Shown one piece after another: positions 22,631 to 62,200 of a DNA stretch of 64,000 nt (its first letter is position 1; each line of letters opens with the position of its first letter). The translations under genes and the position numbers were made by a program. This DNA is from Patagioenas fasciata (lineage: Eukaryota > Chordata > Aves > Columbiformes > Columbidae), in contig NC_092541.1 of assembly GCF_037038585.1 (NCBI RefSeq), positions 5,583,445-5,647,444 of the forward strand. Direction: 5' to 3'. The notes under the pieces are model-generated. The model was not told the DNA's origin. It made no database searches and saw only the letters and a program-made list of their open reading frames with translations.

Positions 22631-22936
22631 TTAGCAGGGTCGGCATCTGCTGCCACAGTAGCGGCTGGTAATGCAGGAGAGGTCAAAGCCCCCAGAGTTG
22701 ATGGGAACTCCCTCGCAGCTGAGGATGCTGCCAACAGCAGCAGAGGTGGAGGAGCCCACAACGGTGTTCTGTGGGAAGGAGCTGAGGATGGGTCCAGGAA
22801 GAATCACCACCACAGAAGAGGGCTCAATGATGACACTGGAGCTCTGGCACTGCCTGCAACAGGGCTCATTGCAGCTGTTGGCCAGCGGGGTCGGACCACA
22901 GGGCTGGCAGGGCACGCATGGATTGCAGCAGGACAT
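22631..22936 (-). CDS. Feather beta-keratin (unit C), chimeric gene
   Basis: A 101-residue feather corneous beta-protein with 14 Cys, ending CGSRCRPC. The 3' flank and most of the coding exon match the unit A/B minus-strand keratins. Residues 34-45 ([12 protein letters not shown]) and the nucleotide stretch near 22790-22830 match the keratin at 31734. The 5' UTR and acceptor (exon 2 start 22957) also resemble the 31.7 kb gene. The intron (22958-23328, 371 bp) and exon 1 (from 23329) match the orphaned 5' relics of A and B. The gene thus joins one paralogue's body to another's promoter. The splice sites (CAG|GTGAGT donor, CTCCCAG acceptor), TATA (23389-23395) and frame are intact, so it should be expressed under the second promoter. 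Confidence 0.93.
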
Positions 22937-23388
22937 GTTGTGGGGCTGGTAGTTATCCTGGGAGAGATGTCAGGGAGGAAGGAAAGCACAGAAACACCTT
23001 AGGAACCACTTGAAATCCCACCAAAAGGAAGCCAGGGCACCTGCTGGGTAGGGAGGTGGCAGCTTTGCTGTGGGGAACAAGAGCTCAGCAGAATCCCTTG
23101 GATAGAAGCCAAACTCGGGGATCCTTCTGCCTGGCCTGTGTCAAACAGAGACCTCAGCCCAGTCTCAGAATCTCTCTGTAACAGTCTGTCTCTCTTCAGC
23201 CCTGTCCCACAACCACAATCTCAGAGGACTAACATAAGACCACAGAGCTGGTATCAGCTCAGCTGTTATTGATGACTGGACCCTCACCTATGGGAGGAGG
23301 GGGAGTAGAAAAGGGAGTTCCAACTCACCTGGTTCCCAAGCAGAAGGAGGTGACTGAAGTGTTTGAGAGAGCGACAAGTTGATCTGGC

Positions 23389-23610
23389 TTTTATATTATA
23401 TTCACAAGGCCTCGGGCCCTAGGCAGTCACTGTGTAAGCCACAATTTTCCTCGTAATGAATGGAAACATCCCAGGTAATGACATGGCATGTGCTGCTGTT
23501 ACCCTCTATGCTGCCTGTGTATTTCCTGGATTATGTCATGCCCATTCCCTCACAGATGCCTCTTTTGAGTACTGGGATGAGAAGTCCCAGCATTTCTGGG
23601 GCAAGGATGC
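23389..23610 (-). promoter_or_regulatory. Keratin promoter: TATA box plus diverged upstream module
   Basis: TATAAAA on the minus strand. The upstream block is recognisable ('ggtaatgacatgg', 'tgtcatgcccattcc') but is more diverged than at the other genes. It is the live version of the 3.63-4.15 kb relic promoter. Confidence 0.7.
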
Positions 23611-23949
23611 GACAATTCTGCCAGAAAAGATAGACCAGAGGGGTCCAGTGGAGGCAGGTGATGTCAGCTGGGGCAACCTTTTTTTTTATCATGTTGTTGA
23701 CAGGAAAGGCCCCAGCTGCTCCCAGCCCTGCACACTTGCTTCGTCTGCTTTGACCTGATACTCTTTCCTTTTGAGAGCTTATGGGCAGAAATTCAACACT
23801 AAGGCTCTACACTTGTGTTTGCTTTGTTGTTTGGTTTGGTTTGGTAATATCTGCAAGTTCCTCTTGATGTATTGTACTTACATAGATGTTTAAAAGAAGA
23901 AAGAAAGAGAGACTATATAGTCCTTCTCTTCCAGAATTATTTTAAAAAT
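23611..23949. other. Spacer, no gene seen
   Basis: Non-coding, with short poly-T and TTTGG runs. Nothing recognised. Confidence 0.4.
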
Positions 23950-24085
23950 AAAGTCAGGTTGGATGAGGCTTTGAACGACTCATCCAATGAAAGACATCAC
24001 TGCTTGTGGGAGAGGGGTTGGATAAAGTGATCTTTAAAGTTCCTTTCCAACCCAAACCATTATACAAGTCTATCATTCTGAAAAA
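23950..24085 (+). mobile_element. CR1 LINE 3' tail
   Basis: 'caggttggatgaggctttga' followed by 'tcctttccaacccaaaccat' and a degraded terminal ATTCTG. Confidence 0.65.
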
Positions 24086-25814
24086 GTGAGGTCTACATCC
24101 GTAGAAATGGATAAAGTCCTTGAAGCCACAGAAAGAATGCTAGTTCAATGCTAGAAGAGACGAAATGTTCAAGTACTAGACATGGGTAGGTTGTGTGGCA
24201 TGAATTATGCAAGAAATATTTGTTAGAAGCTCAAGCAGAATGAGAAGTAACAAAGATTAGATCTCCTCCTTCTGAACAAGAAACTGACTGTTACTACAGC
24301 TCATTAGGTAATACAGAAAAAACTTGATTGATTCAAACCCTTGTGAGAGACTGTGGAAAGCAGTATGCACTGCCAGATTTGAGTATCAGGATTTACATGA
24401 TCCTGAGGTATACGATTGTACAGATACATGGATCAGCATGTTTTAGATTATAGAAAGTGACATGGACAAAGCTGAATGAATGAGCTGATAAAGTGACGCA
24501 TAGCTGGATACACAATCTTACAGCATAAAAATGAGGTTTTGACTGCACAGTTCAAGCGCAGGAGGTCTCTGTGCTGCAATTCCCACCAGAAACACCCATT
24601 CAAATGGAACACTGCATAATGCTGAAATGTGATTTCTCTACCAGAAGGTCTTATTTCAATATCTTCTAATATGCTGTCAGTCCCCTAGGTAGCAAAGCCC
24701 ATATGACACAGATGTGAAACACATGACTCCCTGGCCAAATTCGGCCCTCCACCTTGTTTTATCCAGCCTGACACTTTGTTTCTACTCAGTGGCAGTGCCA
24801 AGCTCCTTATCCCCAGGCTCCTGCCAGCATCCCACGTGCAGCGTGTGTGACACGTGTTGCGCTGCAGGAGCAGGAGAAGGGCAGGAGCTGCGGTTGTAAC
24901 TACAGGAGAGTGGTGAGCCTGTGTAAGCAGAGTAACAGGTGAGACTGATGTGGGATACTAGTAACTGCCTTGGGGCATTGAAAAACAAGACAGACAAGAA
25001 TTATGGGGAGGGTGGAGGTGCTTAAAGGCATACTCTCAACTCTCATTTAATTTTTTAATAAATTAGCCAGATACATGAGCTATATCAACTACATGTTATT
25101 TTTAGAAGTACCTGTAAAAAGATATTTTGTAACTAGGAGCCAGGGTCCCACTCCTTAATTCTACATTGTTTTCCATGGATAAGACCATCCCTGTGGTCCA
25201 GCAGTCACGGCCGCACTTGCACAATGACATGCTGATGTCATTTAATAAAATGTCATTTAATAACAGGACAGCTCTGGGGCACAAGTAGTAGTTAGGCATA
25301 GTCCCACAGTCATGACCACTTGCTAAAGTTCATGCATCTGGCTAATTTATCAAATGAAATGTGACTGCCGAGGCGGGAATACCCCTTTAAGGAGGGATGC
25401 CTTGAGCGAATGGGGTAACAAGGAAAGTGCCTGCTAGGATTTGTAATGGTGAAATAAAGTAAATGTCTCTACTGGGAGGGTGTGAAATAAGGCGAATGCT
25501 CCTCATGGGGGAGGTGATAAAAGTAGAATATCAGTATGCATGTCCACCCCCAAAGGAACACTGTCCTTATTCCACCACGGAAGAATGAGGAAAATGTTCA
25601 TGCAGGGGAATGGCATTAAGGATAATGTTGCTGTCCAAGGAATTGCCAATGGGGGAATAAGCAGAATGTTATTGGGATAGACAGAGGGGGAGAAACTATA
25701 GAGAAAGCGTGACTGCTGTTTATGGGGATGGGGGTTTGAAGGAAAGGTGAGCCTGTGTGAGAGGGCCTGACTATTTTTTAACCTGCTCCTAAAGAACATC
25801 TTGGTCTTTTACTT
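24086..25814. other. Unannotated stretch
   Basis: No gene recognised on either strand. It is AT-rich in the first half and purine-rich with 'gggggaat'-like words at 25.4-25.8 kb. No open frame over 100 codons. Confidence 0.4.
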
Positions 25815-25816
25815 AG

Positions 25817-26245
25817 GTGGCACACCGTATCATCTCTGGTGGAACAATTTGAATCCCAAAACGTCCAGTAAGAGAAACATCATTGATGCAGAAGGAAGGC
25901 GATGTAATAATAGATAGGAAGGCAAATACATGTTTGTGTTCCAAGGAGAAAAAACAGTATGTCTTTTGTGTTATGAGACAGTGTTGGTGATAAAGGAGTA
26001 CAATGCACATAACCAAGGGGCAATCACAAGGCCTGCGCACCGAATTCTAAAATTACATTTGGACCTTTGAAGGCAACCATGAGGCTGATGCGAGCTCCAG
26101 TGAAAATGAGTTTGACTCCCCTGCCTAATAGTGCTACTGCAGGTGGATTCAGGGAGATTCTTCTCTGCACTGTCTGCAGAGGACTCCCTGATGCTTCTCT
26201 GTATGCAGGATGCCATGCTCCAAGATAACATTGGATCATTTGGCA
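25817..26245 (+). pseudogene. T-cell receptor alpha/delta-like V segment, pseudogene
   Basis: An acceptor-like TTTTACTTAG ends at 25816, and the exon opens GTGGCACACC in the same phase as the intact segment at 44160. The last third reads VDSGRFFSALSAEDS, then MQDAMLQDN, aligning with KDSGKFSSAMSVQ... and VRDAKLQDST of that segment. Upstream, 'cccctgcctaatagtgctac' matches its CDR2-adjacent region. The expected YYC end and the recombination signal are gone, and the interior is disrupted. Confidence 0.6.
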
Positions 26246-31733: not shown

Positions 31734-32039
31734 TTAGCAGGGTTGGCATCTGCTGCCACAGTAGCGGCTGGTAATGCAGGAGAGGTCAAAGCCCCCGGAG
31801 TTGATGGGGACCCCATCACAGCTGAGGATGCTGCCAACAGCAGCAGAGGTGGAGGAGCCCACAACGGTGTTCTGTGGGAAGGAGCTGAGGATGGGTCCAG
31901 GAAGAATCACCACCACAGAAGAGGGCTCAATGACAACATTAGAGCTCTGGCACTGCCTGACACAGGGCTCATTGCAGCTGTTGGCCAGTGGGGTTGGGCC
32001 ACAGGGCTGGCAGGGCAGGCACGGGTTGTAGCAGGACAT
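31734..32039 (-). CDS. Feather beta-keratin
   Basis: A 101-residue feather corneous beta-protein. It starts [10 protein letters not shown] and has Val at residue 27, [12 protein letters not shown] in the first core strand, CDGVPIN at 74-80 and a C-terminus ending CGSRCQPC, with 12 Cys. The ATG is at 32039. Exon 2 starts at 32060 after CTCTCTCAG. The intron is 32061-32435 (375 bp), and exon 1 starts at 32436 (CAG|GTGAGT donor). The TATA is a GATAAAA variant at 32496-32501. It shares Ile45 and much nucleotide sequence with the unit C keratin, and its N-terminus with the 37.4 kb gene. It is structurally complete. Confidence 0.95.
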
Positions 32040-32495
32040 GTCGTGGGCCTGATAGTTCACCTGAGAGAGAGGACAGGGAAGAAGCAAAACATGGCAATGC
32101 GTGAGAAGCAGCCTGTGACCACACTATGAGGGAGTCAAAGAACATACAGGGCCAGAAGGTGGAGTCTGTGCAGAGATGTACGAGAGCTTTTTGGCCTCAT
32201 ACTGCCTTAGTCTCAAAAAAGCCACCCAAAAGAGCTACTGCCTCACTTATAGCCCAGAAGCCACCTCAGTACATTTACAGACTCAATCTATGCTCAACCT
32301 TCTCCCCACTTCTCTCTCTTGTGACAAGCAGCTCCAAGATCCAGCATAAAAGAAAGCTGGTATCAGCTGAGAAGTCCATTGAGGTGAGACCTCCTTTTAG
32401 AGAAAGCAGAAAAAGAGAAGAGGCTTCAGACTCACCTGACTCCCAAGGAGAAGGAGACAAGAGAAGTGGATGGGAGAGTGAGGAGCTGGGCTGGC

Positions 32496-37054: not shown

Positions 37055-37060
37055 TTTAAT
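37055..37060 (-). promoter_or_regulatory. Poly(A) signal ATTAAA of keratin 37392-37694
   Basis: ATTAAA on the minus strand, 332 nt past the stop. The context (aactttaatga on the plus strand) is shared with 52493. Confidence 0.75.
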
Positions 37061-37391
37061 GACTTAAAAGAGGGAAAGAAAGTCATTGCAAATGGAGGTC
37101 AGCAGTGCCCAGGGAGCACTGGGGACAGAACAGAGTCTGCACTTCTTGGCTGTGAAGACATTCCTGTATAATGTTTGTCTGCCTGTCCCACAGTGAGGGA
37201 CAAACCATATAGTCCCCACCAGGCTGGCCTTGGGGACATATTGCAACCCAGGGGAATCAAAGCATACAAAGAAAATGGGAAAACAAATGCATTCATCTAT
37301 CCTGAAAACAATGTCCAAAAGATCGATCATCTACTCAGCACCATGTTCTGAGTCCTCAATGTGTCTCCCTGGGGCTTTCCCAGAATCTTCA

Positions 37392-41345: not shown

Positions 41346-41350
41346 GTCGC

Positions 41351-46978: not shown

Positions 46979-48670
46979 CCTCCAGCAATCCCACCCCAGC
47001 ACTGCATGTCAAAGCTCAGCTGGAGGGTGCTGACTTTCCAGCTGAATACCACCCGGTGAATCATGCACTTCACCTGAGAAAGCTGAAGGTACTTGGTTGT
47101 TATCCTACTGCTGTTCCAGGGTGGCCTGCCTTTCCCAGTTGATGTGGGTTTGCTCTAAGGCCCTACTGGAGGCTTTGCACGCTCCTATTTATCTCAGAGC
47201 CCTATAGACGGGGTCAATGGGGAATTGACAGCAGTCCCCAGTTTCCTGCAGTCTGCTGTGTCTAGGGTCCCTTGGACATCAGGCCCTGATTTTGATTGTT
47301 CTCCAGGGCTGCAGAGGGATTCAGCACTCCACAGACACAGTTCTCCATCAAAATCAACATCATCCCTAAGCAACACTGAACAGCAGTGATAGCTACCTGA
47401 GGACAGATCCAGGCTCAGGCTCTTTCTTCAGCCTCACTGGGCTGTCCCAGGAATTTTCCCAAATGCCACTGAGAAAGAGAGCACAGCTGACAAGGGTGGG
47501 CATCAGCCTGTCCTTGGGCACTGGTTCCTGGGCCTGGCTGCAGAACTAAGAGCCAAGTCCCTAGGACTGGTGGACACAGGAGAATTGCCCCCAGAGGCAC
47601 CACTGCTTCCAGAAGAGAGGAGTAGATATTCAGTCCAGACTCAATCATCTCACTTGGAGAGCTCTACACTGAGGTGAAATCAGTCCCACACTGCTCATAA
47701 AGATGTATCTGCTGTATTGATGCCTCCTTATGAAGTGGTGACATGGACTCCCTTCACTGTCAGTATGTAGAAAGAAGAGCTTTGAGAACACGATTCATCT
47801 GTTCTGAAATGAAAATCAGGAGGGAAAAAGCAAGTGCCCTTTGGAAGTGCTAATGTCCTGCCAGTGAGTGTAAAGAGAGACTTGCTGCCAGCCAGCCTTC
47901 CACAGCTCTGCAGTTTGGGGACTTTGCCAATCACATGAAAGTGTTTTCACAACAAAGCCCAAAACGGGTGAAATGATGAACTGTTGAAAACTGATGTGGG
48001 GTTTTAGATGTGGAAATGCCCTGACACATCTAGCATGAAGCATAGTGATTTACATATTTTTAATTAAAACTTAAAAAATACATCCAGATACTGGACAGGG
48101 GGAAGGACCGTCTTCTGCAACGAATGATGGCTGTAGGTAGGCATACCAGACATTGCCAAATTTTCTCTTGAAGCAGAGCATGATTCTGTGAAACAGCCAC
48201 AAGAATGGGGCTCAGATGCATCCAGAAAATGTCAGATTAAACATGTCGATTTCCTAAAGCAGCAAGCCAGGTAGTGGGACTTTTTAGGGACTCATATGAG
48301 TCCCTGATAAAATGAAGCACCCAAAAAACTGGAATAAAAACCTGTTGGAGGACCACCCCTGCAGTGTTCCATTGGAGAATTGTTACCAGTTGGGGTTTGC
48401 GACCCCTTCCAAGTGCTCGTCCAGGGCACAGTGAGGTATTCTGGGTTTACCCAGGAGCGAACAGAGGGAGGTAGAAGCGTTAGGATCTAGGCTCAGCCCA
48501 GCCTAAGGTGGCTGTAAGGTGAGATGAGCTCACTGGGGAAATGGTGGCTTCTCACTGCTTGTGATGTCCAGGGGTACTTACACTTTGGTGAGGAACTTCT
48601 GCAGGATAGAAGTCATAGAAGAGAGGGGGTGAATCTGTTTGCTCCCACTGAGACCCTTTGAAAAGCCACT
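46979..48670. other. Unannotated stretch downstream of OR gene
   Basis: No gene recognised. A long AT-rich patch lies near 48.05 kb. This stretch would include the OR 3' UTR, but I cannot place its poly(A) site. Confidence 0.4.
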
Positions 48671-49645
48671 TCACTTTTTCTGGAAAGCCCACTCCAGAGC
48701 TTTCTTCACTTCCTTGTTCCTGAGTGTGTAAATGAAAGGGTTCAACAAAGGAGTTACAATTGTATTAAAGGTATTTACGAGTTTGTTCAGATCCAGGGAG
48801 TTCTGGGCTGATGGCTTGACATACAGGAAGATGGTAGAGCCATACCAGATCGTGACGACACTGAGATGGGCAGAACAAGTAGAAAAGGCCTTTTTTCGGC
48901 CATGGACTGACTGGATTCTCAGGATGGAAGAGATGATGTACATGTAGGAGACCAGGGTTACCACACAGGAGGCCAGCACAACAATAATGGAGACAAGGAA
49001 GGTTGCTAGCTCTACAGACCGCGTGTCACTGCAGGAGAGGGCAAGGCAGGAATCTATATCACAGAGGAAATGATTGATGATATCTGGCCCACAGAACATC
49101 AGCCTTGATGTCAGAAAGGCCAGCAGAGAGATGGCCAGAAAACCTCCCAGCCAGGAGCTGAGCACCAGCTGAGCAGAGAGGACACTGTTCATGAGGGAGC
49201 TGTATCTCAGGGGGCAGCATATGGCTATATACCGATCATAGGCCATGACAGACAGAAGAAAACACTCAGTGGAGCCTAGGGAGAGAAGAAAGAACAACTG
49301 GAGGATGCAAGCACTGAAGGAGATGGTTTGGCTAGTCCCCATCATGACTCCTACGGCTTTGGGAACAGCACCAGTAGTGTACCAGATCTCCAGAAAGGAG
49401 AGATTACAGAGGAAAAAATACATTGGGGTATGGAGGTTCCTGCTCATCCACACGAGGGCTATGATGGATGCATTGCCTATTACTGCCAGGGAGTACATCA
49501 GTGCAAATACCACCGCTAGTGACACCCGGAAATGCCAAGTGCCTGGGAAGCCAAGAAGGATGAATTCTTCCACACTTGTCCCATTTGCCGTGTCCTCCCA
49601 AGTATTAATGTCCTTCTGCAAAGACAGGAAAGTTTCTGTGAGCAT
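48671..49645 (-). CDS. Olfactory receptor, class II, intact
   Basis: A 324-residue odorant GPCR, expected in the plasma membrane or cilia of olfactory neurons and coupling to Golf. Visible: NGT glycosylation site at 21-23, EFILLGFPG before TM1, GN at 57-58, LHTPMYFFL (71-79), LSFLEIWYTT in TM2, MAYDRYIAICCPLRY (134-148) at the TM3 end, four loop-2 Cys (185, 195, 200, 205), SYMYI in TM5, KAFSTCSAHL (252-261) at TM6 and NPFIYTLRN (302-310) in TM7. FLEIWYTT and SLGSTECFLL point to the OR6/OR11 group. The only Met before TM1 is residue 1. A strong acceptor (TTTGCAG) lies 11 codons inside, so an alternative spliced 5' exon is possible. Intact and likely functional. Confidence 0.95.
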   Translation of the reverse strand: MLTETFLSLQKDINTWEDTANGTSVEEFILLGFPGTWHFRVSLAVVFALMYSLAVIGNASIIALVWMSRNLHTPMYFFLCNLSFLEIWYTTGAVPKAVGVMMGTSQTISFSACILQLFFLLSLGSTECFLLSVMAYDRYIAICCPLRYSSLMNSVLSAQLVLSSWLGGFLAISLLAFLTSRLMFCGPDIINHFLCDIDSCLALSCSDTRSVELATFLVSIIVVLASCVVTLVSYMYIISSILRIQSVHGRKKAFSTCSAHLSVVTIWYGSTIFLYVKPSAQNSLDLNKLVNTFNTIVTPLLNPFIYTLRNKEVKKALEWAFQKK

Positions 49646-51609
49646 TTGAATGCCTGTGCTGGTCCTTCAAATGTTACTAGTAGTGAAACTAAACAATAAT
49701 CCCTGACAAAGTCATTGGTGCATAGCATGGGAAAACAGCAGCTACCCTAAGTTAAATCATCAGAGAAATCATGTGCTGCAGGAACAGGTTTGGACGGTTA
49801 GATCTGACCCTGAAAGTCAGGCCTCAACCATCAAGTGAACACAGAGAATTATTTATCAGATAAAGTACAGGCACTCCTTTAGAACATGGGGATTGCATTC
49901 ACTTCTGTGAGACAAAAATCTCATTTAGAAAACTGTGGACAGCAGACTGAGGTTTTCCAGCTATGTGAAAGGCTGTTGCAGTGAGGAAAGGGAATTACAT
50001 AACTGCACTCTTCATGGCAGGCAGCGCTGAGTTGTGATTTCAGCAAATGGGACTGAGGGAACAGAAAAACGCTGTGATAATGTGGCTCTGGAAGATATTC
50101 TCTCACCTCTTCTAGTCAGTTTATCACAATGGCTTTTGACTGAGATGGCACTGACACAGACTGACAGCATGTCAGTATGTCTCAAGGACTCATGAGCTTG
50201 TATATTTGCTTTCTTCCAAGCCTCAGCAGAGGAAGCTTTTGCAAATACCTCCATTACCTCCACTGACACTTGCTTCTCAGCACAGCTACTGGGGAGAAGA
50301 CTCACCTCTCCGTAATTTTGCCATCTCAGTGTCAGGGGAAGGACTTCTGATGACCAAGTGGAAAGACCTTCAATGAAATATTCCTATCTCAGCTTCTCAG
50401 CTTACCCTCCTTCTTTGTCAGTGGACAGACAATAGGCAGGAAGGAGAGATGACTCATCTTACTTTATATACATTGCTAAAAGCCAATATAAAGAAGTGCC
50501 AGGTTGTCTCTGAGGACTAAGGCAGGAGTCTAGTGAGAGGCTCAGATGAATAGGTCAGACATCTCAACTTGGGCAGTAACTGAATTAGTAACTGAAGGCA
50601 AAATCCTGTGAGTTGAATCCCATTCAGCGTAGCTCTGCTGAGCCAGCTGAAATGCAAGGTATAATCTGTGCTCTCCTTGAAGACAAAGGAGAATTCTTGA
50701 TCTGTTCTCCAGGGAGAACAGATTTCATCCTCAGGTGGGTGTCTCAGATGGAGCTGAACCATCACCTGAAGGATCTCTTTCTCTCCTTTCTTACTCCTTA
50801 GGAATTTACATACCACAAATTGCATGTCACTAAAGAGCAGAGAAATCTTTCTTAATGTGTCTCTACTTAAACATGCGAAGCATTGGAGGTCTGTGCTATG
50901 TATCTTGGGCAGGCTTCACTCACCAGCTCAGCCAATGCAAATGATCCAAACGTGTCTTCATGCACCATCCTCCAGATGAAGACTTAGTCTCCTTGGCCAA
51001 GGGAGAACATTGGAAGGAGATTGATTTGTTGGAGGAGCTGTGGATGCAGTGATGTCAGGAGAACCGTGGGTGAACAGCTCTCACCTTGCTGACTCACTTC
51101 AAGCTGTACACAACTGCCTGACGTCGTTTCATCTCCATCCACCTAGCAGGTATTGACAGCCTGTGCTCCCCATTTTCTTTCCCCTCACAGCTATCACTGT
51201 GCTTTCATAAAGTGGGCCCTTATGTGTAACACTGTGACACAGTGTAAAGTCTCTGCAGTTTATCTGATTATGGGGAAAGCACACATCAGAGAGTCACCAG
51301 CATCATTAGGACAAGAACATCATCACTCTCACCTCATTACCACACTGAAGTTCCAGCTAGCCACACTGGGGAGTTTTTCTGTTTTCCCTCTGCATACCAC
51401 AGGGAGTTTGATCTCTGAGGAATCTCATAGAACAGCTGCAGACAAATAAAGCTCTCTCTTCACAGAGGTCAATTAAAGAACAGCAATGTAATCCTCAAAA
51501 GTGGTTGTCAGGTTGTGTGTTTGTCTCCTGCCTGCAGCTGTGGTATGTGAACACTGTGAGAAACTCAGTGCTGTCTTGTGGAGCCATTTGCAGGCACACA
51601 GGAGATGTG
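49646..51609. other. Unannotated stretch upstream of OR gene
   Basis: No coding family recognised. It would contain the OR promoter and any 5' non-coding exon, but no clear TATA was found. Confidence 0.4.
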
Positions 51610-52403: not shown

Positions 52404-52492
52404 CCCTCACCCCCTTCCACCTCAGAGCAAAACCCTTCTCCCTCTTCAGAGAGGGAAGGACCACACAAGCCCAAGCTTGAATGCAGCAGAAC

Positions 52493-52498
52493 TTTAAT
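52493..52498 (-). promoter_or_regulatory. Poly(A) signal ATTAAA of keratin 52833-53135
   Basis: ATTAAA on the minus strand, 335 nt past the stop. Confidence 0.75.
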
Positions 52499-52832
52499 GA
52501 GTCAAAAGAGGGAAACAAAGTCACTGCAAGTGGAGGACAGCAGTGCAGGAATCCCCAGAGGAATCCAAAAGTCTGCAATCCATGGTTGTGAAGAAGTTCA
52601 TACATAATGTTCATCTGCCTGCCCCATAGAGGGAGAGGAAATAGATGCTCCCCACCAGACTGGCCCTGAGGGAACCTCATTGCCAAGGGGAACTGAAGCA
52701 ATCAAAGAAAAAGGAAAGACAGGCAAAGCCATTCAGTTATACTTGAAAACAAATCCAAAATCTTGATCCTTTGCTCAGCACCATGTTTTGAGTTCCTCAA
52801 GATGTCTCCCTGGGCCTTTCGCAGCATCTTCA

Positions 52833-53135
52833 TCAGCGCAGGTACCTTCTGCCAAAGTAGCGGCTGGAAATGCCAGAGAGGTCACAGCAGCCAGAGTTGA
52901 TGGGCACTCCATCACAGCTGAGGATTCTGCCAATAGCAGCAGAGGTGGAGGAGCCCACAACGGTGTTCTGTGGGAAGGAGCTGAGGATGGGGCCAGGCAG
53001 GGTCACCACCACAGCAGGGGGTTCGATGACAACTCTGGAGTCCTGGCACTGCCTGACACAGGGCTCATTGCAGCTGTTGGCCAGTGGGATTGGGCCACAG
53101 GGCCGGCAGGGCAGGCACTGTTTGTAGCAGGACAT
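52833..53135 (-). CDS. Feather beta-keratin, altered C-terminus subtype
   Basis: A 100-residue feather corneous beta-protein, sister of 37392-37694. It has the same ending type ([20 protein letters not shown]) with Cys 83-84 and no Cys beyond. It is the most diverged N-terminus and core in the window: [19 protein letters not shown] at the start, [14 protein letters not shown] at 31-44, AIGR at 67-70. There are 10 Cys. The ATG is at 53135. The 5' UTR differs from its sisters, with an acceptor at about 53157 (CTCTCCAAG). The intron is about 53157-53505 (349 bp), the donor is CAG|GTGAGT at 53505, and the TATA is at 53566-53572. The longer in-frame N-terminal extension is UTR and intron. Confidence 0.94.
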
Positions 53136-53565
53136 GTTTTGAGAGTGGAGGTGAAACTTGGAGAGAAGCAGAGCACAAGAGAGGGTGAGGAGCAGCCTGG
53201 TTAACCTGCAAAAAGGAACCAAGACCATTACTGAGTGGGGAGCCAGAAGCTGTACCAGGAGCAATGTGGTCTTCATCACCCTACAAGGAGTGGCCTGGAA
53301 CTGGGAGACTGTCTCCTAATGTGTAAACCGAAATCCCCCTCTGCCATGTCCCAGCACTCCTCTAAGCAGCAGACCTTCTCCCTGCCTCCCTCTCCCATGA
53401 CAAGAAGATGCAAACCCCAGGACAGGACGTATCAAATATGAGCATAGATGTCCATTGATAAGAGACGACAAGTTTAATAAGGAGGAGAAGGGGGTTCAGA
53501 CTCACCTGGTTCCCAAGCAGAAAGAGGCAAGAGAAGTGGATGAGACAGAATGGACTTTAGCTGCC

Positions 53566-53790
53566 TTTTATATCTGCCCTTCTCCACCATAGGACCAGAG
53601 GCATCCTTGGCAGAGGTAACAATTTTTGGACAAGCTCATCTTGAATGCAAACCATCACAGCTAATGATATGGGCTGTGCTTTACTTTCCAACACTGCTGC
53701 CTTTTCATTTCCAGGTTTGTGCCGTGCCCATTCTCCAATGAAAGCTTCTTCTGATCCGTGGGATGAAAGGCCCCAGGATTTCTAGGGCAG
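53566..53790 (-). promoter_or_regulatory. Keratin promoter: TATA box plus upstream module
   Basis: TATAAAA on the minus strand. The shared block runs to 53790 and is very close to 38138-38365. Confidence 0.8.
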
Positions 53791-55039
53791 GAAGTCAGCA
53801 GTACAGCAGAAGACTTCACTCAAGTACTGAATGTGTCTACAACAGGCACAAGAAGTCAGCCTGGGACACCCTCTTGGGACTCTTTGAAATGCCATTGTCA
53901 AGAAGAAGTTCTAACCATCCTCATTTGGATGCCCAGGGCTCCTGCATATGAGGAGGTGTCAAGTTCTTGTCTTTCCTGCCCTCCTCAGCTCGCCCTTGTG
54001 GTCCTGTTTTTTTTTCCTTCCCAGGTGTGAGTGTTGTGCTGCTTGGTATCTGACCCCATCCTACCCAACACTGCTCAGTCCATATGGGTCCTCAGCAGAC
54101 TCCATGAACTTCTCCAGGAACATGGTTTATGGTGTTGCTATGGATGCTCTTTTCCTGTGTATACTTGTAAGCAGACAGGTTTGTGCTGATGCATGTGGGA
54201 GCATAAATTTGTGTATAACTCCTTGCTAGTGTGCATGAGCCTGCATGTGTGTCCTTGTGTGTTATACACCATGAGGGAATGTGCTGCTCATGGACAGGAC
54301 ACTCCACTGCTCTGTCCATGAGCAGCGCAGAGCAGCAGGTTCCCAGGGTCAGAAAGAGGTCGAGTGCAGCTGAGTGGTGATGGCACCAGCCTGCTGGAGA
54401 TCTGTCCAGGGAAGAGGCTCTGAAATGCAGCCCCTCTCTCCTGAGCCATCATTTTCCTGCCTTTTCAAAGGTCTCGATCTGCTGCTGCTGATATCAGGCT
54501 AAACAGGGATGATTTCACTGTAGTTTGTATCCTTGGTTTAATTCAGTGTAACATCATTGGGAGTATCTCAGCATGGCTGGCAGTCTCCCCTCCCTGCATC
54601 TTCCAGGACAGGAAGCAGCTGCTCTCCCCAGTGCTGGAGATCAAAAGGATGGAGTTAACTCTGTGGGCAAGGACTAAGGCCAGATTCCTGTCTACCTTGT
54701 GCTGACCATCCCTGAGTGGATCTGCTTCCAGTGCACTCTTGAGTGTGTCTGGAATGGAACACGGCCCATGACACTGGATTAGGGAATGAATCCCCAAAAG
54801 CCAGCTGCTGTCCTTTCTGAAAAGGTTTGTGCTTGATGGGTAGCTTTTTTAAGCCTCCCCTCCTGAATGACTCTCATTTGGAGCTCAAATCCAACTTGCA
54901 GGCAGTGCAGGTGAGGGCTTTCCTCCTTCCATTTAGTGACCTCATTGAGATCAATGCCAGCGAGCTCTCCTAAAAGAGCTCAGCCAGGGCTGATTCCCCT
55001 CTCCATGATGCTGCTTTGAGCTGAGGCTTGAGTGCATCT
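53791..55039. other. Distal upstream region of keratin
   Basis: Collinear with 59.9-61.25 kb over about 1.2 kb ('gctgctgctgat', 'tctgcttccagtgcactc' versus 'tctgcatccaatgcagtg'). A TG-rich patch lies at 54.16-54.27 kb. No gene. Confidence 0.55.
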
Positions 55040-56080
55040 GAGGGACAAACCCATTGCTTTCTCACAAAGTAACAGGCACTGTGGACAATGGAAAGGGTGG
55101 GGGATTTGTGTACTTAAGCCTAGCAAGACCTTTAGCATCCTCTCCTGTAGTTTCTTCATGACCAAATATGAGATGAATGGGTTCAGTGGAAGGATGATAA
55201 GTCGGGTAAAAAATTGCCTGGACTACCAGGCTCAGACAGTTGTGATCGCAGTGGCCTGGCCGCCCCAAACGTATTAGTGGGGTCAAGTTGTTGGGGTCAG
55301 TCATAGGAGCAATACTGTTTGATGTTTTCATGAATGCCATGAGTCATGGGAAGTGGGGAACAGACTGTAACTGTCAAATACACCTGCTGTCTAAAAAGAA
55401 CTGGACAGGCTGGAGAAACTGGCTTACTGGAGCAACATGAATGCCAAAAAGAGCAAGGACAAGGCTTTGCATATGAGGAAAAAAACAGTTTTTTCATACA
55501 GGCTGGGACTGGCTACCTGAGAAGCAGATCCATGGAACATGATGTGGGGTTTTAAGAGAGACTCAGATGAAGATGAAACAGCAGTGTGCCCTAGCAGCAA
55601 ACAGGACCAACTTCATCCTGAAATGTGTTACTCAAATTCTTGAGAGCAGGTCCAGGAAAATGATCCTGCCCCATTGGCAGATGTACGATCACATCTGGAG
55701 TACTGCATCCAGGGAGTGGTCCCTGGTCCAAGAATGATATCACCAAACTGAACTGAGTTCAACACAGACCACTGGTTAATTAGGAGGCTGATGAGCATGA
55801 CATGCAGGGAGAGACTAAGAGAACTGGTCCTGCCCATCTTGAATGAGAGAGGTGTCAGAGGAGAAATTCCTTCTTTCTGCGACTACTTTTTCAGGCAAAC
55901 AGAAGAAGATGGACCTAATCAATGAAAGTGCCCAAGAGTTTGTACAATTCCATCATGAGAAGTGCTAAAGAATGGATCGAATGTGACTGTGAGCAACATG
56001 ATCTAATAGGGTGTGTTCTGAGAAGAGGGGGTGATCCAGATGACCTTTGGAGGTCCTTTCTCACCTGCATTCTGACCTGG
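55040..56080 (+). mobile_element. Old CR1 LINE fragment (shared by keratin units)
   Basis: 'cctggactaccaggctcaga', 'gctggagaaactggcttact', 'ggcagatgtacgatcacatc', and a degraded end near 56075. Paralogous to 39.77 and 61.26 kb. Confidence 0.75.
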
Positions 56081-56840
56081 TGATTTACCCCCTTCCCTTC
56101 CCACCCTGACCCCTTCACATCCATGGACACAATAATACTCACATCCCCTCTGCCACAACACAACGTTCAGTTATTGTGCTGGGGCTACGCAGAGGCAACT
56201 GAAGGGAGGCTCTCAGGCTCCTCACTGCAAAGCACAGGAAATCAGTGGCTGCTGTTTCCAGCCCCTGAGCTCAGAGACAGCTCTGGGAAGCTGGTCCATC
56301 TCCTGGGTCAGGGCCTTGCAGTTGGTGCTGTGTGAGCTTCATCTTGCTGGAGGACAGACAGAGTCCATTTCCCAGAATCCAAAGTTGTGGCCCTGCAGAG
56401 TCCCAGAGTCCTGTGATCCTGGTGAGACCCCAAGTGGTGCCGGCGCAGGACTCAGCCCCGGGGTGGAGCTGGTGGTGAGAGGAGAGGGGAAAGGAGGGGA
56501 GGACAGAGGAGAGAGGAGAGGAGCAGTCAGAGCAGAAAGCCGGGCCTGGGAGGGGGTAGTGAGGCATGGGCAACAGAGCAGCGGGATGCGGCAGTGCCAG
56601 GGTGCAGGGCTGGCAGGACTGGCTGCAATGCTTCTGGGTGCGTGGGGGACGGGGCTGAGCCTGGGGTGTCCTCACAGATCCCTCTATGCTGTCTTCCCCT
56701 CTGGCTTCCTCATGGATCTCTGTCCTCCAAGTGTCCTCCCATCCTTCTTTTCCCATTCCGTATTCCATCAGAAAACTCTTATCTCTGTTATTCATCAAAT
56801 TCTTCCTTTCTTTTTGCCTGTGTCTTTCCATATAATTCAT
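56081..56840. other. Spacer before V segment; possible leader exon
   Basis: The start (56.1-56.2 kb) matches 62.2-62.33 kb. A GGAGA-rich patch lies at 56.47-56.53 kb. An ATG at 56587 opens a hydrophobic stretch with LAGLAAMLLGAWG, which could be the leader exon of the 57.26 kb V segment. The donor after it is not canonical, so this is only a suggestion. Confidence 0.35.
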
Positions 56841-57165
56841 GGAGCCATTCCATCCTCTGTTTGTCTTCTTTCTTCCTTTCTTTCTTCTTTTCTTTCTTCC
56901 TTTCTTTCTTCCTTTCTTTCTTTTTTCTTTCTTTCTCTCTTTCTTCTTTCTGTCTTCTTTCTTTGTTTCTTTCTTTCTTCCTTCCTTTCTCCCTTTCTTT
57001 TTTCTTTCTCTCTCTCTTTCCTCTTTCTGTCTTCTTCGTTTGTTTCTTTCTCTCTTTCTTTCTCTTTCTTCTCTTTCTCTCTTTTCTTTTTCCCCTTTCT
57101 TTCTTCCTTTCTTACTTTCTTCTTTGCTTTCCTCCCTCCCCACCATTACTTGTTCAAGATTTCCT
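56841..57165. repeat. CTTT/CTTTC pyrimidine tract
   Basis: About 325 bp almost wholly C and T on the plus strand, mostly 'ctttctttctt' and 'tctctctttc' units. It produces long spurious Lys/Glu/Arg-rich frames on the minus strand and Phe/Ser/Leu-rich ones on the plus. Confidence 0.92.
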
Positions 57166-57258
57166 CTCTCCTTCTGCAGGATTTGTTCTGGAAAACAGCA
57201 GGCAGGCCTGGGCAGAAACCAGGACTGAGGTAATTTTTGTTCTTTTTCTCCTCGGTAG

Positions 57259-57550
57259 TGACTGCAGGCAGAGCCCAGGTGTGGCAGGAGCTGTCAGCAG
57301 AGATCACCGAGGGCATCGGCATCAGCATTAACTGCTTACACCGAGACGTTCAGGGGACTGTGAATATTCAGTGGAACCGTCAGCTTTCAGACCAGGCTTC
57401 ACATCACATTTTAACAGGCTTCACTGGTAATAAACCCGTGTCGGACCCGACAGGTTGGCTGTCGGTGGCGGCAGACCGCCGGTCCAGCGCCCTGTGGCTC
57501 ACCCGGCCCCGGCGCGGGGACGCGGCGGTGTATTACTGCGCCGTGGGAGA
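57259..57550 (+). CDS. T-cell receptor alpha/delta-like V gene segment
   Basis: The exon follows a pyrimidine tract and CTCGGTAG at 57258, with the same split-codon phase as the 44160 segment. It is open to the recombination signal, about 97 codons. Start RAQVWQELSAEITEG, first Cys in ISINCLH, framework-2 Trp in IQWNRQL (Asn replaces the usual Tyr after Trp), WLSVAADRRSSALWLTRP in framework 3 and GDAAVYYCAVG at the end. It belongs to a different V family from 44160 and is the intact relative of the pseudogene at 41.7 kb. The 3' third is very GC-rich and CpG-rich. The open frame continues past the signal but is not coding there. Function depends on an unproven leader exon and a drifted signal. 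Confidence 0.8.
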
Positions 57551-57589
57551 CACGGGGAGAGGAGCCGGGGCTGCGGCCGGGCACGAACC
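57551..57589 (+). promoter_or_regulatory. V(D)J recombination signal, GC-drifted, 23-bp spacer
   Basis: Heptamer CACGGGG (5 of 7; the critical CAC is kept) at 57551-57557, 23 bp of spacer, nonamer GCACGAACC (6 of 9) at 57581-57589. The spacing is exact, but the sequences are weakened toward G/C. Confidence 0.55.
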
Positions 57590-58692
57590 GCCGCGGGCGG
57601 GGAGACAGTCCTGGTGTGCCCGCCAGGGGGCGCTACTGCTTAGACAGCCTCCTCGCCACCCCGGCCCCGCCCGAGCGGCAGCGGCAACTGCCTCAGTATC
57701 AACACCGGCACCGGCATCTCCGGGTCCTCCTTACAGTCGCTGTCTGGGCTCAGCACCTCTTCTCATCGACGGCTCCTGTGGCTCTGTGCTCCTGAAAGCA
57801 GCAAAGAGCTGCACTTGGACAGCACTACATGTGGAGACTGAGATGGTCTGTGCAAGACAGAGAGGGTCTCTTGCCTCCCCAGAAATGTCTCAGAACGTTC
57901 TGGGAAATGTGGTGTTCTCTGGCCTGTCTGTAAAGATCTGCAGCATTGTCTCAGAAATGCATCACAGCCCATCCAGCCCGTGGCAGCCTGGTCCTCCTGT
58001 TGCCTCCATTCTCCTCTCACCAAGGATGCTGAGCTCTTTCTGCCTTTTAGGAAGACAAAGTGACAGTGTAGGCCCTTCACATGAGGACAAGGCACAGGGA
58101 GTTCATGGTGTCACAAGCAAATTGATCCCAAATGCTCCAGAGGGTTGCTCAGTCTAGTGGGTGTCTCATCAGAGCTTATCTCCCTTGTGAAAGCACATCA
58201 GCACCCAGTGTTTTTTCCCCTCCCAAGGACACACACAAAGATCTCAACACAACATTGACACTAAAAGGTTCTGTGGTCATTCCAATTATACAATTATGAA
58301 TTATGCAATTATGAAACCAATGCCCTCAGGAGTTACCAGAGTTGCAATGGGAGTCAGCCCTTACATGGCAAAGGTCCATTCCAACAAACCAGAAATTATT
58401 GTCAGAGCTCCGCCATGTTCTCTTTACTGTGGTCTACCACCTACTCCACAGCCCTGGCAAGGCCAGACTTTCATCTGCGCTCAAGTGGTTACCTTGCCTT
58501 GCAGCCATGGTTACTTTTATTCCTCTGGCACCAACGGACACAACGGATTTACCCCAGCACACCTCTGGTTCCTCTCTCTAGCCTGGGTAGTTGATTCCTT
58601 CCAGACATGACAAAGCTGTTCCAAACAAAGCAGTACGTTGCCCTGAATGAAGCACAAACACATTTAAACAGGGCGACCTCGCCAAGTAGCAC
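57590..58692. other. Spacer; no gene seen
   Basis: 57.6 kb shares 'gggggcgctactgct' with the flank of the 41.7 kb V pseudogene. 58.14-58.69 kb resembles 8.28-8.76 kb, the DNA that precedes the unit A OR relic. Open frames here are not family-like. Confidence 0.5.
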
Positions 58693-58920
58693 ATGGCTCT
58701 GCTTGTCTTTGTCTTCTCCATGGGTCTCCTAACCATGGTGGGAATGGCCTCATGCTTGTCACTGTGGGGAGCAGCCCCTGATGATGCTGATGTAGTTCTT
58801 CCTTGGCAGACTTTCCTTCCCAGAGATCTGCAACACCACCCTTGTCCCCAAAATGCTGGAGACTTTTTATGGCATGAGGACTACCATTTCTGTAGTCAAG
58901 TGGTTTCTGTCAACCCACCA
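58693..58920 (+). pseudogene. Olfactory receptor relic (TM1-TM3)
   Basis: One frame gives LLVFVFSMGLLTMVG (OR TM1). A shifted frame at about 58811-58870 gives SFPEICNTTLVPKMLETF, the OR TM2-loop motif (compare SFLEIWYTTGAVPK in the intact gene). The rest is missing. It is flanked on the left by sequence shared with the unit A relic, so the two descend from the same ancestral position. Confidence 0.65.
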
Positions 58921-59500
58921 CACCTCTGCTGGGACAAGTGTTCCACAAGCAGAGCTGTAGCCTGGCCTGGCTCAGGGGTGCTGGAGGCGCTGGGCAGCTG
59001 GGTGCTGGTGGGAGATGTCCCAGCGTGTACTCTGTGGTTGGGCTGGTGTCTGCAGGTTCCACTGTATCCCCAGGGCAGGATTGGTGCTGTGCCCTGGGGT
59101 GCCTGTGGGGCAGGGAGAGAGTGGAGGACTCTGGGAGTCCCAGGCAGGGTGAGGAGCTGGATTGCCCAGGTACTGGCACTTCACCCCAGTGGTAGTGGTG
59201 CAAGTCTTGTGTGGGAGGAGGTGAGACCCTGATCTCTGGGCATGGTGAGACTGTGTCCTGTGGCCAAATAGATAAAGAGGGTCAATGGCTCTGCCCCAGG
59301 TCTCAAGTAGGAGGAATGTGCATGGAACTTTGCCTGGTTTGTTAGGCCCTGTGTGCCTGAGCCAGAATTTTGAGCTCTGCAGGCTGCAGGACCCTAGAGA
59401 GCCCAACTTTCTATAGGAACACCACCTGCAAACTGTGGACAGTTGGCTGAAAATTGGTAGTTTGGTTCAGGGATGTACAGAGGAAAGACATTTTGTGACA
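58921..59500. other. Spacer; no gene seen
   Basis: Weak similarity to 30.1-30.4 kb. Several open frames in both strands, none recognised. Confidence 0.4.
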
Positions 59501-59900
59501 CTTATGCTTGCATAGCTGGGCTTTCAGAGCCCTCATTCCTCATCCCTCTTCCATGGCAAGCAAAAGCAGAGGACAGAGGTGACATCATCTGAAAGATGCA
59601 CTGAGGAGAGGACTCACTTTGGAAGAGGAGGAGGAGAAGGGGCTTCAGGAGGAAAAAGCAAAGAATTCGGCTGGCTTTTATATCTGCCCTTCCTTGCCGC
59701 AGGACCAGAGGCACCTTAGCAGAGGTAACAATTTTCTGACAAGCTCATCTTGGATGCAAACCATCACAGCTAATTATATGGGCTGTGGTTTTGTTTCCAA
59801 CACTGCTGCCTTTTCATTTCCAGGTTTGTACCATGTCTGCTCCTCAATAAAAAATTCTTCTGATCCCTGGGATTAAAGGTCCCAGGATTTCTAGGGCAGG
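59501..59900 (-). pseudogene. Feather keratin promoter relic without coding exon
   Basis: The TATA (TATAAAA on the minus strand, 59676-59682) and the shared upstream module (to 59900) are as well kept as at live genes. Part of the intron is recognisable near 59530-59640. The exon 1 donor region is deleted, although a GTGAGT remains at about 59616. No keratin coding exon is found down to the OR relic at 58.9 kb, so this is an orphan promoter. Confidence 0.75.
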
Positions 59901-61254
59901 AATGAAACAGTGCAGGCAGACGACTCAGCTCTAGTGCTGAATGGGCCCAGAACTGGCAAGTGGTGTCAGCCTGGGACACTCAGTTGGGGCTGAAATGTCG
60001 CCTTCAGGAAGAAGCTCCAGGACATCCTCAGCTGGATTCCCAAAGAGTCCTGTGCGTGGGGACGTGTCATGTCCTTCTCTTTCCTTCCCTCCTCAGCTCA
60101 CCCCAATTGTCAGTTGTTGTTGCCTCCCCAGGTGTATGCATTGTGCTGCTGGTTTTGACCACATCTTGCGTAACACTACCCTCAGGAAAAACAATTGACC
60201 TATTTTGATTTGTCTCCTCTCTGTGCAGTCTGTCAGTACACATATAGTGCCATGGACTTGCCTGGGGCCTTGCCCTTCCCCAGAATAATCACCTGCTGTG
60301 GTTGTCCTGAAGTGTCCTCTGCAGAGCCCATGGTCAGTCATGCTCCTACATGTGTTCTTGCCTTGTGTGTATGAGCCTGCTAGAGATCCTTTCAGAAGTT
60401 CTGCCTCTGCCTCCTGAACCCTCCTTTTCCTGCTCCTCTAAAGGTCTTAGTCCTCTGCTGCTGATTTCAGGTCACAAGGATGGTTTCACTCAAGTTCAGA
60501 TCCTTTGTTCAATTAAATGTAATAGTATTGGAAGTGCCTTAGCATGGCATGCAGTCTCCATCTGCCTGCCTCTCCAGGCCATGACACAGCTGCTAGAGAG
60601 TTCAAAGGGATGGTGTTTGCAAGGAGAAAGTCTGAGGAATCCTGCGGACCTCATGCAGGCCATCCTTGAGTCGATCTGCATCCAATGCAGTGTACATGGT
60701 GTCTGGGATGGGACACAGGCATCTCCTGTGCACAAATGAATGTCAAATGTACTTTTGCAGCCCATGAATCAAGTACAGTGTCAGGCAGGGGCTGAGACAG
60801 GAATAAACAGGTACTGAATGAAAAGAACATGGAGTCTGACGTTGCTATGCTGTCAGTGGAAGGAAAGACCCTGTGACTTCCACAGGGGTAGCCAAAGAAC
60901 TGATGGCCAGCACCATCATGTCCCACACTGGAATCTCTGTCTGAGTGCCCAGCAACTGCTTCTGGAAGGGACATTGGTTTTGAGGTCGCATCCTCCAAAG
61001 CCTGATGTTGTCCTACAAGGATGTCAAGAAGAGACCCTCTTTCCAAGAAAGGTTCTAAATAGTGAATAAAGCTTCTGAGCCCATCTCCCCTTCTGAATAT
61101 TTGCCTGCCTGAGCTGAGGTCCAACTTGGAGACAGCATAGTTGAGAGCTTCCCTCCTTCCCTTTAATGACCACAGTGAAACCAGTGCCAAGGGAGCTCTG
61201 CTGGGAGCCATGGCTGATTCCCCTCTCTGTGGAACTGCTTCTGAGCTGAAGATC
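59901..61254. other. Distal upstream region of keratin relic
   Basis: Collinear with 53.8-55.04 kb and partly with 32.9-33.06 kb and 38.4-38.78 kb. No coding family recognised. Confidence 0.5.
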
Positions 61255-62200
61255 TAGTGTAACCAAGAGCCAACCTTATTGCTTTCTCATAAGGTAAGAG
61301 ACGCTGTGGAGAAGGGAAGAGCAGGGGAGGTGTGTACCTACAGTTTGAAAGAACCTTTGACACCCTCCTCTGTACTGGTTGATGATGAATGGCTTAATTA
61401 GGAGGCTGATAAGGTGAGTGGAAAATTGGCTGGACTACCAGGCTCAAAGAGTTGTTAACTTGAAGAAACAGGCTGACTGGTACCTCATGATGACCAAAAA
61501 GAGCAATGGCAAGGTTTTGTATCTGGGGTAGAAAACAGACCATGCAGTGACACAGGTTGGGGAGTTGCTGCTAGGAAGCCAGTTCACAGAAGGTGATTTG
61601 TGTTTTTAGGAGACACTTAGCTGAACACAAGACAGTAGAGTGACCTTGCAGCAAAGGCCAACCAGATCTGTGCTGTGATCGCCAGCAGGTACAGGAAAAT
61701 GTGCCTGCCCCTCTGTCTATTTGAGATCACATCTGGAGTACAGCTGCCAGGCTGGGGCTCCTTGGTCAAAGAATTATACCAACATACTGGAGAGTCCAAC
61801 AAGGGCCATCAAGGGGTACATTGTCAAACCTGACAAGTGAGGAGAAGCTGAGAGAACTGGGCCTGCTTATCTTTGAGATGTCTCAGAAAGACCTTCTTAT
61901 TCTCTACAACTACTTAATCAGAGGAGGGAGAGAAGATGGGCCAAGATTCTGGAAGTGCTCAGCAAGAGGAGTAGACTCCAGCAACTAAGACACGGATAAA
62001 TCTGACTAAGCAATAGACTAAAAGAAATAACAACTGGAGCAGGTTTCCCAGGGAGCTTGTGCAATTATTTATCCTGAGAGCTGTTCAAGGCTGGACTGAA
62101 TGTGATCTTGTGCAACCTGGTCTAATGGGATGTGCTCCAAGCAAGGGGTTAATCCATATGGCCTCTGGAGGTCCCTTTCCACTTACATTCTGACTATGCA
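61255..62200 (+). mobile_element. Old CR1 LINE fragment (shared by keratin units)
   Basis: 'ggaaaattggctggactacc', 'agaactgggcctgcttatct', 'gtgatcttgtgcaacctggt' and 'cctctggaggtccctttcca'. Third copy of the fragment at 39.77 and 55.04 kb. Confidence 0.75.

Follow-up and report, generated by a model that had tools for sequence, protein, structure and literature searches.

Feather keratin genes and T cell receptor alpha V segments copied in composite blocks in Patagioenas fasciata

Feather keratin genes, T cell receptor (TCR) V segments and olfactory receptor (OR) sequences are found in mixed order along 64,000 nucleotides of Patagioenas fasciata DNA (hereafter the window). The question raised by this locus is whether the three were copied together as one piece or came to lie side by side independently. 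A sequence-only reading of the window had proposed the former. It was followed up here by homology searching and alignment in the window, in a longer joined sequence and in further copies on the same contig (C29).

Keratin, V and olfactory receptor sequences in the window

Feather keratins were recognized by keratin coding sequence match. On the minus strand, they were found at 1009-1317, 12080-12391, 22634-22945 and 31737-32042. The last two mark the border of the keratin array, and no TATAAA was found upstream of the gene at 31737-32042. Two plus-strand keratins, i.e., 7515-7826 in unit A and 18489-18800 in unit B, are located 5' of OR relics. Two more minus-strand genes, 37395-37697 (old unit 1) and 52836-53135 (old unit 2), each have a frame of 100 aa, with TATAAA 450 and 437 bp 5' of the ATG, respectively. 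In a profile search of the window, PF02422, i.e., feather keratin (corneous beta-protein), matched at 52833-53315 with an E of 5e-38; the genome-wide scan for this family gave at least 150 scored places. The genes have the form of single-exon keratins of ~100 aa behind an upstream promoter. Keratin coding sequence was present at all four minus-strand places named by the sequence-only reading (22.6, 31.7, 37.4 and 52.8 kb).

The V segments of the window are all on the plus strand. A V pseudogene had been read at 25.8 kb; a V relic is there, but it is split into two pieces, 24505-24672 (E 6e-6) and 26146-26241 (E 1.7e-4). Between them, 24707-26124 is an 82% copy, in opposite orientation, of C29:6225394-6226855. 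A TRAV1-like V pseudogene at 41707-41985 (E 2e-9) is colinear with the V of later units. The V segment at 44114-44593 (V-set, 52 bits, E 1.2e-13) has an RSS-like signal at 44454 and a related copy at C29:6227754-6228227. At 57234-57620, a TRAV1-like V segment with an open frame (V-set E 5.1e-6) has an RSS-like signal at 57551, and its best solved-structure match is the TCR alpha chain of 6lir (E 7.8e-26). The RSS-like signals sit where expected, with nonamers of 6-7 of 9 and weak heptamers of 5-6 of 7, and an equally good nonamer occurs at 1.6% of CAC sites. Upstream V frames were inspected for leader exons, and none was assigned.

One OR, at 48671-49666 on the minus strand, has an intact frame with a 7tm_4 domain (E 2.7e-48), and partial or full copies of it are located at C29 5663379, 6204733 and 6230837. 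The OR copies on the plus strand are broken relics. They were found at 58711-58890 (E 3.5e-25; 69% identical to the array OR relic), at 8928-9265 in unit A (match 9059-9256, E 1.7e-6) and at 19714-19928 in unit B (match 19719-19928, E 4.2e-6), the best match in the reversed window having an E of 0.13. A further possible OR relic, suggested at 28.9 kb, was not recovered, as the OR search gave nothing at E<=1 in 28-29.6 kb. The OR pieces probably go back to chemoreceptor genes that have long adjoined TRA, and most of them have since decayed.

A relic block on the plus strand with CR1-like sequence, so named from its motif, lies between keratin and V at 39476-40487 and 54863-56195. A block of the same kind at 60964-62314 has no V 3' of it inside the window. 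All three are near the places where an old CR1 copy had been noticed (39.8, 55.0 and 61.3 kb). A CR1 peptide probe matched the blocks at 39476-40487 and 60964-62314, the latter being the source of the probe, and did not match that at 54863-56195. Counting alignments of at least 150 columns, the relic block was found upstream of TRAV1-like segments in 17 of 17 tested. Rfam gave nothing at the gathering threshold within the window.

TCR alpha locus context and constraint

TRAC, recognized by its match to 6lir, and DAD1 are both located downstream on C29, and a putative Jalpha was recognized by its motif. The PF09291 profile, used as a TRAC probe, gave no match, and none in controls either. V, Jalpha and TRAC are all on one strand, and therefore V-to-J joining would proceed by deletion. 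Such deletion would excise the keratins in between, and alpha-beta T cells would hold fewer keratin copies than other cells.

It is unlikely that the interleaving is genuine but most copies are dead, with one family a passenger without use. The weak RSS heptamers and the two V pseudogenes (24.5 and 41.7 kb) would fit this, as would a stop codon in 2 of the 31 keratins that the family scan listed on the minus strand from 5.61 Mb onwards, and one core keratin frame broken after 25 aa. However, among the minus-strand keratins of the joined sequence from 22.6 kb on, a frame of 99-101 aa was kept in 14 of 16 and TATAAA at 422-459 bp upstream likewise in 14 of 16; the genes at 1009 and 12080, where a false ATG was picked, were excluded from both counts, and 119440, where no ATG was picked, was scored as a miss. 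Keratin dN/dS was 0.18 in 8 of 14 keratins, the six left out being four of one class and one other, in which the motif was missed, and one with a stop. No stop was present in 49 of 52 TRAV1-like matches among those listed. The array keratins look constrained and have retained TATA box and open frame, and most V frames are open. Passenger status could hold for one family, and it is compatible with co-duplication.

The dN/dS of the TRAV1-like segments was 0.59 (16/16 V used). Positive selection on the V complementarity regions was considered and rejected, dN/dS being 0.43 in CDR1+2 vs 0.60 in the framework.

Array architecture and copied units

Between 5.60 and 6.245 Mb, minus-strand keratins alternate with plus-strand V segments in a K-V-V pattern, the keratin and V genes being head to head and 3-6 kb apart. 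The window takes in no more than one edge of this array. The array holds at least 43 keratins and at least 73 V segments. The keratin counts are lower bounds because the family-scan list is without some window keratins (e.g., 1009, 18489 and 22634), and 5.84-6.20 Mb is known from scan matches alone, with counts there a minimum. The order of the 43 keratins and 73 V segments listed has 81 switches vs a mean of 54 (0/20,000 permutations); tandem copies lack independence in this test. V rows less than 400 bp apart were merged for this test and 12 of 40 marker-keratin rows were added, the others overlapping the family-scan list or lying outside the array.

The core of the array is built of 43-48 kb units, each containing 3 keratins, 6-7 V segments and a single OR relic. 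Among the long alignments listed (at least 2,500 columns), 24 of 29 connect units of 99.3-253.9 kb in the joined sequence, at 95.2-98.0% identity. A single alignment of 7,004 columns (96.2%; joined 191645-198642 vs 235043-242027) spans a TRAV1-like V, an OR relic and a keratin. The marker keratin is present in 10 copies, 93-100% identical among the matches listed. For 37.4-52.8 kb, the order keratin, V pseudogene, V, OR, keratin had been read from the sequence, and each part was matched. The same unit was found again, order kept, at C29:6220683-6240829, 600 kb off. The 7,004-column alignment and this repeated order bear out the proposal of a block copied as one piece. The composite module consists of a keratin, a CR1-like relic block, a TRAV1-like V and usually a second V, and the copying of whole blocks with keratin, V and OR sequence took place at two depths.

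The window units at 37.0-51.5 and 52.4-62.3 kb are the older copies. K2P distances are 1.4-2.8% among core units, about 15% for window vs array and 19-26% for window vs far-end copies, and copy ages are graded from these only as old vs recent. Keratin distances covary with those of the adjoining V (Mantel r 0.72, 1/20,000 permutations, 10 core modules; r 0.37, 205/20,000 permutations, all 16 modules). Within the window, nucleotide alignment (67-78%, at least 150 columns) ends shortly before it reaches the V segments and the OR. Versus the downstream (two subject ranges) and far-end copies, with a cut-off of at least 120 columns, V and OR are inside the paralogous blocks.

Other units are less complete. 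For the unit read at 52.8-59.7 kb, the V and the OR relic hold; the keratin relic claimed at 59.7 kb does not, since the alignment at 59648-60286 (minus strand) covers a keratin 5' flank with the coding part absent. The unit starting at 59.65 kb has no V, and the next V is at joined coordinate 75262. One-piece duplication is weaker for 22.6-31.7 kb, also taken as a repeat unit in that reading: keratin and V relic are in the order given, the OR relic and the CR1-like block are missing, and the unit aligns to later units only around the keratins, CR1-type pieces aside. Units A and B had been described as a plus-strand keratin followed by an OR relic, which agrees with what was found, and their OR-relic flank is homologous (61-66%) to the flank 3' of a V in the array.

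The whole is best explained by a keratin-V-OR block co-duplicated in two rounds, presumably by unequal crossing-over between repeats, to which we give a probability of about 0.85 for this one assembly of one bird. What remains of the old round is seen in the window units together with the 6.22-6.24 Mb copy; the recent round gave about ten units. Keratin and TCR V families appear to have expanded together as the mixed block was copied, both carried along because the block is common to both.

An assembly artefact, i.e., keratin and TRAV reads woven together or haplotypes laid in tandem, is improbable. Both arrays are repetitive, and C29 carries a nearly identical pair of OR loci at a distance of 1.4 Mb, whose alignment of 3,371 columns has 4 mismatches and 28 gap positions. 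The available text of PMC10972964 also describes chicken chromosome 27 TCR sequences as wrongly split between haplotypes in the reference. However, keratin, V and OR occur together at all three K2P levels, the window copies are old and therefore cannot be haplotypes, and the 256,556 bases of joined sequence contain 0 N. Repeated independent insertion or inversion between two adjoining arrays, with no composite unit copied, would suit the lone V relic at 5.327 Mb inside the keratin array and the absence of the full module in units A and B and at 22.6-31.7 kb, but it is very improbable, and disfavoured for joined 37-256 kb, given the unbroken alignments that take in a keratin, a V and the OR relic, the relic block common to modules and the covarying keratin-V distances.

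Known systems and possible consequences of a shared block

Each ingredient is already known on its own: homology units in TRA, keratin arrays on chromosome 27, and OR genes mixed with TRAV. No description of keratin-TRAV interleaving was found in the literature searched. The pigeon array has the make-up of a TCR V homology unit, i.e., a V and an unrelated gene in one duplicated block. Chicken Chr27, which carries TRA/D, has 47 feather-keratin coding sequences over about 578 kb in the portions available of two reports (PMC2894828, PMC4202321). The large tandem feather-keratin arrays of avian microchromosome 27 resemble the present one; however, they are described there as keratin only, 't-cell' being absent from both main texts and 'tcr' and 'immunoglobulin' from that of PMC4202321.

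Duck TCR loci are similar in structure, as far as the accessible part of PMC5278385 goes. The Valpha region arose by tandem duplication of a unit that combines one Valpha2 with one Valpha3, and in TCR beta a Vbeta1 segment shares its unit with PRSS2, a non-TCR gene. The duck passenger is trypsinogen, in TRB and in three copies, whereas here feather keratins are in TRA, in about ten units. In mammals, the 5' end of TRA/D contains olfactory receptors scattered among TRAV, and the 3' end has DAD1, but the 5' OR-TRAV synteny is not conserved in chicken and keratin is not reported in the sections available (PMC2275272). In a published TRAV1 account, as far as its main text extends, many TRAV1 RSSs are likewise low-scoring; the word 'keratin' is absent from that text, and its pairs have a spacing of about 2 kb, which is wider here.

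If co-duplication of the block is true, two bird gene families of variable copy number would share one duplicating block, and drift or selection on the V repertoire would shift feather-keratin dosage, and vice versa. Surveys of keratin and of TCR copy number on this chromosome may count one event, and the shared block offers a reason for the hard assembly of both arrays. For birds at large, the chances are about even that part of the chromosome-27 keratin array and TRAV form one composite array with linked copy number, and that alpha-beta T cells delete keratins on TRA rearrangement. Somatic keratin gene loss in T cells is predicted and measurable. The separation of thymocyte from feather keratinocyte expression programmes also becomes testable, in genes placed head to head at such short distance.

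Copying of keratin, V and OR sequence as one block

The window occupies C29:5583445-5647444. Joined coordinates refer to C29:5,583,445-5,840,000 of contig C29, i.e., the window and 20 further stretches read as a single sequence, which contains no N. Of the self-alignments of at least 2,500 columns, 24 of 29 join units in joined 99.3-253.9 kb, the core units, at 95.2-98.0% identity. A TRAV1-like V segment, an olfactory receptor (OR) relic and a keratin were found inside one alignment (7,004 columns, 96.2%, joined 191645-198642 and 235043-242027), and keratin and V inside another (10,734 columns, 97.9%, joined 164941-175645 and 212418-223105). The sequence-only reading had proposed that keratin, T cell receptor (TCR) V segment and OR were copied as one piece, and the continuous core alignment that holds all three bears this out.

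Each of the three whole units read, spaced at 43-48 kb, contained three keratins, six to seven V-like segments, part of which are partial matches only, and one plus-strand OR relic. Ten copies (93-100%) of a marker keratin that occurs once in each unit were found at C29 5.687-6.126 Mb, 42-65 kb apart, and the next match was 82% (40 of 217 candidates scored). The mean difference at equivalent places of different units was 0.029 for keratins and 0.018 for V segments, whereas at different places it was 0.087 and 0.131, respectively. Distances between keratins and between their neighbouring V segments were correlated in the ten core modules (Mantel r 0.72; 1 of 20,000 permutations) and in all sixteen modules (r 0.37; 205 of 20,000).

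Across the core units, 13 TRAV1-like V exons (L014-L028) showed no variable site among the 60 of codons 70-89 (framework 3), synonymous sites included, while earlier codons of the same copies vary. Such invariance could stem from gene conversion or from a constraint acting on the DNA as such.

The keratin and V region of C29

The genome scanned, one assembly of one bird, comprised 1,453,922,657 bases in 359 contigs, of which C29 makes up 9.48 Mb. The genome-wide family scans scored 150 of 344 keratin, 150 of 569 V-set and 138 of 2,342 OR candidates, and C29 5.84-6.20 Mb was covered by scans alone, with further stretches read beyond it. Among the matches listed, keratins in both orientations were placed at C29 5.02-5.60 Mb, a mixed keratin/V region extended up to 6.245 Mb, and V-set segments with no keratin were placed at 6.246-6.32 Mb. 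A Jalpha-like frame, recognized by motif only, was found at 6.4125 Mb, a TRAC exon at 6.418 Mb (match to 6lir, E 1.8e-40) and DAD1 on the minus strand at 6.428 Mb. We take 6lir to be a chicken TCR alpha chain; similarity to it, together with the feather keratins, marks the genome as probably that of a bird. PMC2275272 describes a conserved position of DAD1 at the 3' border of TRA/D, chicken included. One isolated TRAV1-like V relic (C29:5326807-5327082, 59% identity, one TGA) lies amid listed keratins, well before the mixed region begins. More keratin arrays with regular spacing were seen on C2, C16 (approximately 6.06 kb) and C37 (3.0-3.1 kb).

At least 43 keratins and at least 73 V segments were found in C29 5.60-6.245 Mb by family scans and probe matches combined, and the prevailing order was K-V-V. 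Among the matches listed for this region, V segments are plus-strand and keratins minus-strand. Keratin and V switched 81 times against a permutation mean of 54, a number reached in none of 20,000 permutations, and since tandem-unit copies are not independent this statistic describes the pattern and is no proof. The V at 57.3 kb gave 52 genome matches at E<=1e-6, every one on C29 and 49 of them stop-free. Because of the 6lir match and the two main alpha families of chicken, this V type and a second one are provisionally named TRAV1-like and TRAV2-like.

In the 14 modules read, a distance of 3.1-5.5 kb separates keratin from the next TRAV1-like V, the two being arranged head to head, and between them lies a relic block which we take to be CR1-like from its motif. 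The block lies 0.86-1.67 kb upstream of the TRAV1-like segment in all 17 tested. It starts 1.9-2.9 kb from the keratin's left end in 13 of the 14 modules, whereas in the remaining one only a 200 bp piece is present, starting at 4.4 kb. The CR1 copy noticed earlier in three window units was recovered as this block at 39476-40487, 54863-56195 and 60964-62314, and none was found in window 1-39 kb. An insertion shared at a single position favours descent from one ancestral module. For non-coding pieces, K2P was 0.19-0.26 between a window unit and a far-end unit (C29:6220683-6240829), and 0.014-0.028 among core units. The joining of keratin and V predates the last expansion by a long time, and copying of units that combine keratins, V segments and OR sequence took place at two depths.

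Older copies in the window and at the far end

Aligned within the window alone, 37.0-40.5, 52.4-55.9 and 59.65-61.9 kb match at 67-78%, but these alignments end before the V segments and OR. Outside the window the colinearity extends further. Window 36967-51496 is colinear in pieces with C29:6220683-6234389, and the aligned pieces hold keratin, V pseudogene, V and OR; C29:6238536-6240829 matches the keratin that follows in the window (52.45-54.77 kb). The same block, minus the V at 44.1 kb, also aligns with joined 69.9-82.7 kb. Window 52447-57602 is colinear in pieces with joined 69951-75588 from keratin to V (72-84%), and 57171-58890 aligns with joined 146307-148082 from V to OR relic (77.5%). 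Therefore, the units proposed at 37.4-52.8 and 52.8-59.7 kb are old copies of the block, which is also present 600 kb away, close to the opposite end of the array. Window 58894-62314 extends the alignment along the joined 146 kb unit; the keratin relic proposed at 59.7 kb lies in this stretch, but its keratin coding part is absent. For the unit proposed at 22.6-31.7 kb, the keratins and V relic stand, with no support beyond them.

With the array's OR relic as query, OR relics were found at 58711-58890 (E 3.5e-25) and, in units A and B, the window units with plus-strand keratin, at 9059-9256 (E 1.7e-6) and 19719-19928 (E 4.2e-6). The reversed window gave nothing below E 0.13. The relic suggested at 28.9 kb was not recovered with this query. 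The array's OR-relic flank aligns at 61-66% with DNA at 8.3-9.3 and 19.2-19.9 kb, so that the place of V in units A and B is taken by a plus-strand keratin, as proposed. Three more C29 matches (81-86%) to the window's minus-strand OR, at 5663379, 6204733 and 6230837, flank the core on both sides.

Window 43821-44974, 1.15 kb with the 44.1 kb V, is absent from the copy at joined 78806. The far-end unit does carry it; the V there is 73% identical, adjoins the V-only region and may correspond to TRAV3, of which chicken has a single one. Window 24707-26124 (approximately 1.4 kb) separates two pieces of a V relic, and an 82% copy in opposite orientation lies in the far-end unit at C29:6225394-6226855, a stretch missing from the corresponding window block at 42.67 kb; it is probably a mobile element. 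A TTCT-rich tandem repeat (56866-57131) lies immediately upstream of the 57.3 kb V. Over 3,371 aligned columns, the OR loci C29:7942697 (L006) and C29:6544688 (L007), 1.4 Mb apart, show 4 mismatches and 28 gap positions; they are either a recent duplication or an assembly duplicate, and C29 duplications need checking.

Known units and signs of function

Block copying may have proceeded by unequal crossing-over between repeats. V and J segments on the same strand join by deletion and, with this orientation, TRA rearrangement would remove those keratins that lie between the V and J selected. Feather-keratin arrays of microchromosome 27 are known (PMC2894828, PMC4202321). The chicken TRA/D locus, also on chromosome 27, has TRAV1/TRAV2 homology units (PMC10972964), Valpha units are described for duck along with a PRSS2-Vbeta1 unit (PMC5278385), and OR and TRAV are interspersed in mammals (PMC2275272). 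We read the C29 array as of a known kind, V homology units that carry a non-TCR passenger; the feather keratin passenger and the array scale differ and were unexpected. In the literature searched, which included few subscription papers, no title or abstract opening among the papers listed joined feather keratin to the TCR alpha locus, and the two terms 'feather keratin' and 'T cell receptor' co-occurred just in one paper, in separate rows of a table.

The TRAV1-like segments showed dN/dS of 0.59 (n=16), with no excess of amino-acid change in CDR1+2 (0.43 vs 0.60 in framework). RSS-like signals with a 23-base spacer were at the expected place, with nonamers of 6-7 of 9, equally good at 77 of the 4,802 CAC sites of the region, and weak heptamers (5 of 7 in both V types, 6 of 7 at 44.1 kb). 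Most chicken TRAV1 genes are classed as ORF, with low-scoring RSSs, or pseudogenes in PMC10972964. For keratins, dN/dS was 0.18 (8 of the 14 supplied used). A stop codon was found in 2 of 31 minus-strand keratins among the matches listed from 5.61 Mb on, and 14 of 16 minus-strand keratins from 22.6 kb on have a frame of 99-101 aa, as 14 of 16 have TATAAA 422-459 bp upstream of ATG.
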